DNA from: an uncultured Pontibacter sp.
Lineage (GTDB): Bacteria > Bacteroidota > Bacteroidia > Cytophagales > Hymenobacteraceae
NCBI GenBank assembly: GCA_947499125.1
Contig: CANMMP010000002.1
Span: 434,001 to 498,000, forward strand
Reading direction: 5' to 3'
Length of the DNA stretch: 64,000 bases
A model generated the notes under the pieces. It ran no database searches and had not been told where the DNA came from. It saw only the letters and a list, made by a program, of their open reading frames with translations. The translations under genes were made by a program, and so were the position numbers. Numbering within the stretch: position 1 is the stretch's first letter; each line of letters opens with the position of its first letter. Of the stretch, positions 17,248-21,783 are shown piece by piece.

Positions 17248-18186
17248 ATGATCTCACCGGTGCAACTACTGCTGCTTCAGAAAATTCCTTATGTAGGTAC
17301 AGGAGCGATAGAAGCAACTATAGCTTATTTGTCATCTAAAAAGATGATCTTTCCAGAAAGCGATTCGGGTATTGTAAATCTACTGAAGGAAATAAAGAAA
17401 TCTTATCGCCCGTTAAGAGTGCCTACTACAGAAGCAGTGCAGGGTGCCCGCATTTTAAGTCAGCAGATCGTAGCTAACTCAGAAAAGCATGGCATCAGTA
17501 TGATAAGTTATTTTGATAGTGCTTATCCTAAAAGTTTAAAAAATATTGATGATAGACCTTTGCTATTACATTACAATGGAGATTTAAAAGCCCTTGATCT
17601 GCCAACTATAGCTGTTATTGGTTCACGGAACTGTTCAGCTTATGCCAGCGAGCATGGAAGAAAAGTAGCTAATACAGTTGTAGGTGCGGGCTTTACTATA
17701 GTTAGTGGCCTGGCAACCGGCTGCGATACCATTGGGCACACAGCTGCGGTAAATCAGGGAAAACCCACAGTTGCTGTATTAGCGAGTGGCCTGCATGGTA
17801 TCTACCCAGCTGAAAACAAAGTGTTAGCAAATGAGATTTTGGAGAGTGGTGGCTTACTACTAAGTGAATACGCCTTCGGTACTACTATAACTAAAAATGC
17901 CCTGAAAGAGCGAAACCGTATGATCACGGGCTTAAGCAAAGCTGTAGTTGTGTTAGAAACAGGTATTGCCGGTGGCACCATGCATGCCGTTGCGTATGCA
18001 ACAGAACAGAAGAAGCCACTGGCTTGCTTATATCTGTCTGCCACTGATGCTGTAACTTCTACTATGGAAGGCAACAAAATATTGATAGACACAAAGCATG
18101 CTGTTAAACTGGATAGTATAGCTGCAACTGCCAGGTTTATAAAAAGTGTAGCTGAGCCACAGGAAAAGGAAATGGTTATTGGTTAG
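17248..18186 (+). CDS. dprA: DNA-processing protein DprA (Smf family)
   Basis: YPKSLKNIDDRPLLLHYNGDLKAL...IAVIGSRNCSAYASEHGRKVA...IVSGLATGCDTIGHTAA. Confidence 0.85.
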   Translation: MISPVQLLLLQKIPYVGTGAIEATIAYLSSKKMIFPESDSGIVNLLKEIKKSYRPLRVPTTEAVQGARILSQQIVANSEKHGISMISYFDSAYPKSLKNIDDRPLLLHYNGDLKALDLPTIAVIGSRNCSAYASEHGRKVANTVVGAGFTIVSGLATGCDTIGHTAAVNQGKPTVAVLASGLHGIYPAENKVLANEILESGGLLLSEYAFGTTITKNALKERNRMITGLSKAVVVLETGIAGGTMHAVAYATEQKKPLACLYLSATDAVTSTMEGNKILIDTKHAVKLDSIAATARFIKSVAEPQEKEMVIG

Positions 18187-18272
18187 AAGGTGTGCCGGGA
18201 TTTTAAGCATTATAAAATTAAAGAACAAATATTGTTTGCTTTTTATATATAAATTTTATATATTTGCATCAT

Positions 18273-18435
18273 GATTCAACACTATCTGTTAAACGAAACA
18301 GTTTTCATTTCATAATTAGCATTCAGAGTACCAGTAGGTACGGCAACCGGGTTTTAGCTCCATCGGTGCCAAAGACAATGCGCGGCTTCTGCCGAAAAAA
18401 AGCTGCAAGCGATCTTCGCCCATAGCTTTCCATTT
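18273..18435 (+). ncRNA. candidate structured RNA, copy 1 (core 18306-18430)
   Basis: ~124-nt core nearly identical to 20693-20816; stem GTACC/GGTAC, GGCAaCCG/CGGTGCC, CGGC-TTCT-GCCG, GCGA-TCT-TCGC, AAAGCT/AGCTTT then T-run; promoter TTTG-N20-TATATTTG at 18235-18266. Confidence 0.6.
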
Positions 18436-18649
18436 TTTAGTGAATTACCAAACGTCATAACATAGGCTGTCTGGCTTTTTGTTATGTTCTTAAGGTAAGT
18501 TTTGATTGTACTTTAGTCTGCATAGATTCCTGGCTGTGTCATCAGCTTTTGTAATCCTGCTTGAGTTCTGACAAAGTGCATCTTTATAGTTTACAATTTC
18601 AGAAGCGGCAGCGGTTGTGGCTTCTTATGTATAACCTTAAACTATTTAT

Positions 18650-18847
18650 ATGAAGAATGTTATTGTAGCTACCTGGCTAAAAACAGGCGAAGTAGAAGTA
18701 TTCAGCTCCCTGAGAAGATTTGTTGAGCGTAACCCCGCTTTTAACGAGTACACCATCACTAATTACCTGAGCAGAAAAAAGCGTCCTTATGCTACTGAGG
18801 TGCTGCACCTGCAGCGATTGCCTTTTATTAGAGAGAAAATCTCTTAG
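18650..18847 (+). CDS. small hypothetical protein (65 aa)
   Basis: MKNVIVATWLKTGEVEVFSSLRRFVERNPAFNEYTITNYLSRKKRPY; coherent soluble protein. Confidence 0.5.
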   Translation: MKNVIVATWLKTGEVEVFSSLRRFVERNPAFNEYTITNYLSRKKRPYATEVLHLQRLPFIREKIS

Positions 18848-20692: not shown

Positions 20693-20816
20693 CATTTCAT
20701 AAAAAGCATTAAGAGTGCCTTTAGGCACGGCAACCGGGTTTTAGCTCCATCGGTGCCAAAGACAATGCGCGGCTTCTGCCAAAAAAAGCTGCAGGCGATC
20801 TTCGCTCATAGCTTTT
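20693..20816 (+). ncRNA. candidate structured RNA, copy 2
   Basis: Same core as 18306-18430; first stem GTGCC/GGCAC covaries with GTACC/GGTAC of copy 1. Confidence 0.6.
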
Positions 20817-20901
20817 GAATTACTGATTAATTGTGTCCTGCTCAGTTTAAGCCTTGTAGCAGGACAGGAGAAGTATATGTTTCACTTTTAATATAAATGC
20901 T

Positions 20902-21783
20902 ATGAGCGCGATAACCACTTTAGTAAACAATTACGATCTGATACTTAAGCACAAACTGGAGATCATGGGTTATGCCCCTTACAGGTTCAGTAAACTATAT
21001 CTGCCATCTATAGCTCCCGGCAGAAGCCAGAAGGTTAGAAGTACCCACACCAGTATTTGGGGTAGCCAATTAGGGAGTTACCTGATGATATGGGAAAAGT
21101 TTCAAAACAGATGGCCCGAGAGCGATATAATTCCTTTACGCGGGGCAGGTAGCCCATTTAGCGGTTTGGTTACCCAATTTGTAGGCTATGCACGCAACAG
21201 CAGGCAAATAGTGCGGGAAAAACCCGATGGATTTACAACCGCGTATATGCATAATTCTGTCAGGCGTTTTCAGCAGATGTTTCCTGTAGAACAACTGGCA
21301 GTGCCTATAGAGCAAGTGGTAAGCGAACTGAAGAGCGGCCACCAGATGCAAAGCAGACCAAGCTTTCAACTGCTTACTTTGCGTGAAGACTTTTGCCGTT
21401 CCTTGTCTATCATTTCTGGTATAGAATCTGGCGGGCCATCCCGAATAAAATACAATCTGCTACAGAACTACCAGTATAAACCCGTTATACGCGTGGAAGC
21501 GGTGCTGGAAATAGAGCTTACCCACGACGAGCGCCGCCGCTCTGCCTTCAATGGCTCGGCGGTGTATGTAGCCGACCTGGTGCAGGAAGGTAAGGAGAAA
21601 CTAAGACAACTTGGTGACAAGTACGGCTTCAGGACCTACTACCGAAAACAGGTAAGCAACAGTGTGGCAGGTTTGGTGTTTGACCTGGTGCTTCCGGATT
21701 ATGATGCTGTGCTCCTGACAGAGACGATGCAGCACGTTACCAGCTTTATGCACGAGGTGCACAGGCAATGTAACCGCTTCTAA
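20902..21783 (+). CDS. hypothetical protein
   Basis: 293-aa ORF. Confidence 0.65.
   Translation: MSAITTLVNNYDLILKHKLEIMGYAPYRFSKLYLPSIAPGRSQKVRSTHTSIWGSQLGSYLMIWEKFQNRWPESDIIPLRGAGSPFSGLVTQFVGYARNSRQIVREKPDGFTTAYMHNSVRRFQQMFPVEQLAVPIEQVVSELKSGHQMQSRPSFQLLTLREDFCRSLSIISGIESGGPSRIKYNLLQNYQYKPVIRVEAVLEIELTHDERRRSAFNGSAVYVADLVQEGKEKLRQLGDKYGFRTYYRKQVSNSVAGLVFDLVLPDYDAVLLTETMQHVTSFMHEVHRQCNRF

Follow-up and report, generated by a model that had tools for sequence, protein, structure and literature searches.

Two SAM-I/IV-class RNAs precede orphan genes in an accessory island of an uncultured Pontibacter sp.

The window analysed here, a stretch of 64,000 nucleotides from an uncultured Pontibacter sp. 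(contig CANMMP010000002.1, positions 434,001–498,000), contains two copies of a structured RNA which, judged by sequence and predicted fold, both belong to a known family, the SAM-I/IV riboswitch class. We propose that both copies are SAM-I/IV riboswitches that act in cis, copy 1 in the 5' leader of a gene for a 65 amino acid protein and copy 2 in that of an orphan gene designated here as X; to this reading, though not to the direction of switching, we assign a probability of approximately 0.75. The aptamer is ordinary, the gene context is mildly unusual and the expression platform is probably lineage-specific. Regulation of methionine and SAM metabolism is the textbook role of SAM riboswitches. 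In this case the genes behind the RNA are orphans that belong to a rare accessory island, and the methionine genes of the same genome have SAM-I switches of their own. Should the response to SAM be real, the island, which is non-metabolic, would be using SAM as a physiological signal, and the riboswitch would offer a handle on the function of the island genes.

Comparison with Rfam model RF01725 gave 54.0 bits for copy 1 (W1; 18314–18410, plus strand) and 52.4 bits for copy 2 (W2; 20701–20797, plus strand) against a curated gathering cut-off of 41.1 bits, with E-values of 4.6e-6 and 1e-5 over the whole window, which is beyond chance. The sequence-only reading had treated copy 1 as an unannotated RNA of no known family; by its own criterion, a match to Rfam, this was overturned, since both copies score above the cut-off, and a new RNA family was accordingly rejected. 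Membership of SAM-I (RF00162) was likewise rejected, since the two copies scored only 24.7 and 25 bits with a cut-off of 44.4 bits. That same reading was right in seeing a structured non-coding RNA present in two copies: besides the Rfam match, folding and pair counts support copy 1, and no open reading frame of at least 60 amino acids covers its core on either strand. The full extent of copy 2 is 20701–20826, with 103 of 110 core positions identical to copy 1, and the likeness between the two ends at the edges of the RNA. All of the motifs previously named were found in the sequence where they had been placed.

The homologue search that had been suggested yielded more copies, another genus included. 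Among 205 genomes of the Hymenobacteraceae, four carry RF01725 members: the window genome and G195 with two copies each (the latter designated G195a and G195b), and Pontibacter sp. HSC-14F20 (G041) and Rufibacter roseus (G187) with one each. Homologue scores range from 49.9 to 59.4 bits, and the four homologues beyond the window copies all lie above the cut-off. The aptamer core is kept in these six close copies, as are P5 and a 3' hairpin with the arms AAAGCU and AGCUUU. An order-wide search of 392 genomes (a sample that does not include G187) with a model built from the six RNAs returned three of the known genomes plus two convincing distant members, both RF01725, while some match to RF01725 was present in 32 of 398 Bacteroidota genomes. 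Scanning one genome per species (GTDB) for the P3 signature pattern recovered only Pontibacter sp. HSC-14F20 and Rufibacter roseus. Neither the RNA nor gene X had a match in plasmid, phage or IMG/VR viral-contig collections at the sensitivities used, and a literature search found no paper on SAM-I/IV RNAs preceding island genes.

The core of copy 1 begins at approximately 18316 and comprises, on the plus strand, P1 (18319–18323/18377–18381), P2 (18328–18341), P3 (18342–18370) and P5 (18383–18394). P1 is GCAUU/AAUGC and P5 is CGGC/GCCG in the six sequences. P2 consists of 5 bp with a 4-nt loop, one compensatory pair (G-C/A-U) and no internal loop, the last being a criterion for SAM-I/IV RNAs (Weinberg 2010, PMC2864571). 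P3 carries the GGCAACC...GGUGCC core, of which CAACC/GGUG is invariant in the six sequences together with the A-U pairs of P1. Across the six, 97.9% of pairing cells hold a pair, compared with 35–43% in slid controls; support from covariation is limited to three pairs because the close similarity of the sequences leaves most pairs without variation. The ligand-free minimum-energy fold contains P1 to P3, P5 and a further 3' hairpin, P6, in five of the six, and that of G187 is without P1.

Gene X (20902–21783, plus strand), which codes for a 293 amino acid orphan protein, is likely to be the main regulated gene. Homologues with 32–61% identity occur in five of the 205 genomes, and X immediately follows a copy of the RNA, in the same orientation, in all four RNA-bearing genomes (hypergeometric probability 7e-8 for 205 genomes, relatedness ignored); in the fifth genome, G186, X is found without the RNA. 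The protein had no match in Pfam, NCBIfam, PHROG, PADLOC or PDB sequences, and its AlphaFold model (pLDDT 57.5, confident only C-terminally) gave no convincing structural match. Downstream of copy 1, after a gap of 210 nt, lies the 65 amino acid orphan gene (18650–18847, plus strand). It has homologues in three of the 205 genomes, with the RNA upstream in the window genome and G195, and G187 possesses the gene without the RNA. The single RNA of Pontibacter sp. HSC-14F20 combines a promoter like that of copy 1 with a downstream gene like that of copy 2, so that a possible origin of the layout in the window is a duplication of the RNA with genes inserted between the copies.

Both RNAs and X are part of an accessory island, most of whose genes are uncharacterised. 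The island (5107–28343) is largely common to G041, G186, G187 and G195, and includes genes for FtsZ-like (5107), histone-deacetylase-like (6670), M54 peptidase (18941), transglutaminase-like (19635), PepT-like peptidase (22077), VWA (26360) and DUF2130 (27075) proteins. An N6-methyltransferase-like gene with a specificity-like end (14866) is located upstream, not downstream, of copy 1, and a DprA-family protein is encoded at 17248–18186, its best PADLOC match being ShosA (223 bits, E-value 9.5e-67). No ShosT partner was identified among the genes scanned; since only the match of the DprA-family protein to ShosA and a methyltransferase spoke for it, a defence-system label for the island was rejected. 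In Pontibacter sp. HSC-14F20 the island has as its neighbour a set of genes that, by eye, resembles a type I restriction-modification operon (L017:2444–10352). No obvious methionine or SAM-synthesis gene was seen among the island genes examined.

Copy 1 was thought to have its own promoter, and the evidence agrees with this. The putative promoter, TTTG-N20-TATATTTG, occupies 18235–18266 of the plus strand (TTTG at 18235–18238, a 20-nt spacer, and TATATTTG at 18259–18266); we take TTTG-N19/20-TATATTTG to be the Bacteroidota-type promoter consensus. It is found 52–53 nt 5' of P1 in four of the six copies (W1, G041, G195a and G195b), and W2 and G187 are without it. In the window as a whole the motif has four matches with 3.1 expected, and is thus not rare by itself. 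Between promoter and aptamer a weak hairpin, P0 (CTGTT/AACAG, 18286–18301, plus strand), is plausible: the other copies form hairpins at a similar position, though with other sequences, and in only three of the six is the fold of the region better than that of shuffled sequence. A further hairpin, CATAACA/TGTTATG (18456–18486, plus strand), was identified from sequence and fold between copy 1 and the 65 amino acid gene.

The terminator-like end proposed for copy 1 was also borne out. The P6 hairpin (18399–18429, plus strand) has arms AAAGCT (18399–18404) and AGCTTT (18424–18429) and is followed by CCATTTTTT; its counterpart in copy 2 (AAAGCT...AGCTTT) lies at 20785–20815 of the plus strand. 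P6 is conserved in all six copies and in each is more stable than shuffled sequence (p ≤ 0.03); the helix on top of it varies in sequence, with compensatory changes. The U-run that follows it is short in W2 and G195b.

It is most likely at this 3' hairpin that switching acts. The loop of P3 contains AGCU (18356–18359, plus strand), the putative 5' strand of a pseudoknot, PK-2, which is complementary to AGCU at 18401–18404 in the tail. Since the tail strand also belongs to the 5' arm of P6, formation of PK-2 and formation of P6 exclude each other. When AGCU was blocked, the folding energy of P6 fell from between -8.5 and -11.5 kcal/mol to between -1.5 and -4.6 kcal/mol, a cost of approximately 6–7 kcal/mol. 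The predicted PK-2 is 4–8 bp long, with 4–5 bp in W1, W2, G195b and G187 and eight pairs in G041; the corresponding p-values are 0.006 for G041, about 0.05 for G195a and G187, and above 0.1 for W1, W2 and G195b. Covariation cannot test PK-2 or the base of P6, since their strands hardly vary. In several relatives PK-2 is clear at the same place and with different sequences (L042, L043, L047, L051, L053, L056 and L058; p ≤ 0.018), and of these L042 precedes a metK-like gene and L047 a metY-like gene. Taken together, the pairings point to a switch in which SAM would be bound by the conserved P1/P3 core. Without SAM, P6 would close and transcription would end; with SAM, the P3 loop would keep the AGCU strand in PK-2, P6 would be barred and the gene would be transcribed.

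From the pairing alone, we would put this SAM-ON direction at about even odds and the opposite direction lower, because an alternative helix, GGCUU/AAGCU, permits the opposite sign. The fuller proposal, that a SAM-ON transcription switch whose PK-2 strand doubles as a terminator arm couples the accessory island, with its DprA/ShosA-like and N6-methyltransferase-like genes nearby, to the SAM level, is tentative. In a SAM-OFF switch, also a tentative reading, SAM would favour termination at P6, or translation would be blocked, which is how most SAM-I switches work; those known so far mostly repress (PMC10853860). The ligand-free antiterminator could then be GGCUU (region 18385–18389) paired with AAGCU in competition with P5 and P6, and this complementarity exists in all six sequences, but the computed ligand-free minimum contains P5 and P6, and in the SAM-bound state the PK-2 strand would be occupied, which opposes P6. 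As to the ligand itself, SAM is expected for both copies from the pocket motifs. The GGCAACC...GGUGCC core and the A-U pairs atop P1 are identical to those of the true SAM-I riboswitches of the same genome, GCAACC/GGUGC is shared with SAM-I/IV RNAs whose downstream genes are metK-like or metY-like, and J1/2 reads CAGAG or AAGAG, a SAM-I-type sequence. Since the downstream genes are not methionine genes, an aptamer variant with a changed ligand was considered; the unusual gene context would suit it and spermidine-binding SAM-I variants provide a precedent, but these have an altered J1/2 and P3 internal loop (PMC10853860), whereas the P3 internal loop of the present RNAs is without such changes and their pocket motifs are those just described, so that we regard a changed ligand as improbable.

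Whether the RNAs act on the adjacent genes was weighed in the same manner. The promoter and terminator-like end that bracket copy 1, together with the 210 nt separating it from the 65 amino acid gene, would fit a free-standing, trans-acting small RNA to which the adjacency of X is incidental, and the sequence-only reading had envisaged a free transcript of approximately 160 nt. Such an RNA would not be expected to hold a fixed place and orientation before X in four genomes, nor to belong to a family of cis-regulatory riboswitches, and we consider it improbable and the free-standing transcript not the best reading. Somewhat less improbable, yet still unlikely, is that rearrangement of the island left copy 1 behind as a non-functional duplicate. 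The length of the same gap, and the presence of the RNA before the 65 amino acid gene in only two of three genomes, would agree with a dead copy, but the core is intact and the promoter is conserved between genera.

The RNAs of the window group resemble other SAM-I/IV RNAs (RF01725) in P1, the P2 without internal loop, the SAM core in P3, P5, the A-rich tail and the position of the predicted PK-2. They differ in that the pair closing the core is GCAACC/GGUGC, as in SAM-I, where the consensus has CCAACC/GGUGG; in the extra conserved P6 overlapping PK-2; and in preceding orphan island genes. Those SAM-I/IV RNAs whose downstream genes are metK-like, metY-like or transporter-like likewise have GCAACC/GGUGC instead of CCAACC/GGUGG. 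Most of the sampled Bacteroidota SAM-I/IV RNAs that precede orphan genes contain, usually 77–105 nt past the CAACC core, a segment able to pair with J1/2 and the 5' strand of P1. Such a segment, of 9–12 bp in L043, L046, L049, L062, L065 and L066, suggests anti-P1 switching in those RNAs. RNAs of this description are L043, L046, L049, L051, L052, L054, L056, L058, L062, L064–L069 and L022; just downstream of L022, L058 and L067, which are from different families, lie genes for small proteins (approximately 60–87 amino acids) that look alike by eye. In the window group the equivalent segment was not significant (p 0.06–0.94); anti-P1 switching was therefore rejected for it, and its expression platform probably differs. 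P5 followed by PK-2 with the P3 loop, the arrangement predicted here, is described for SAM-IV RNAs (PMC6890682); like other SAM-I/IV RNAs, those of the window have an unsplit P2 and no PK-1. With SAM-I (S box, RF00162) the ligand core is shared, while the P2 kink-turn loop and the P4 inside the junction are absent from the window RNAs. The same genome has three true SAM-I copies (77–96 bits), which precede trans-sulfuration-type, methionine-synthase-type and transporter-like genes, as named from their sequences. Since the methionine pathway thus has SAM-I switches of its own, the pair of RNAs described here probably does something else.
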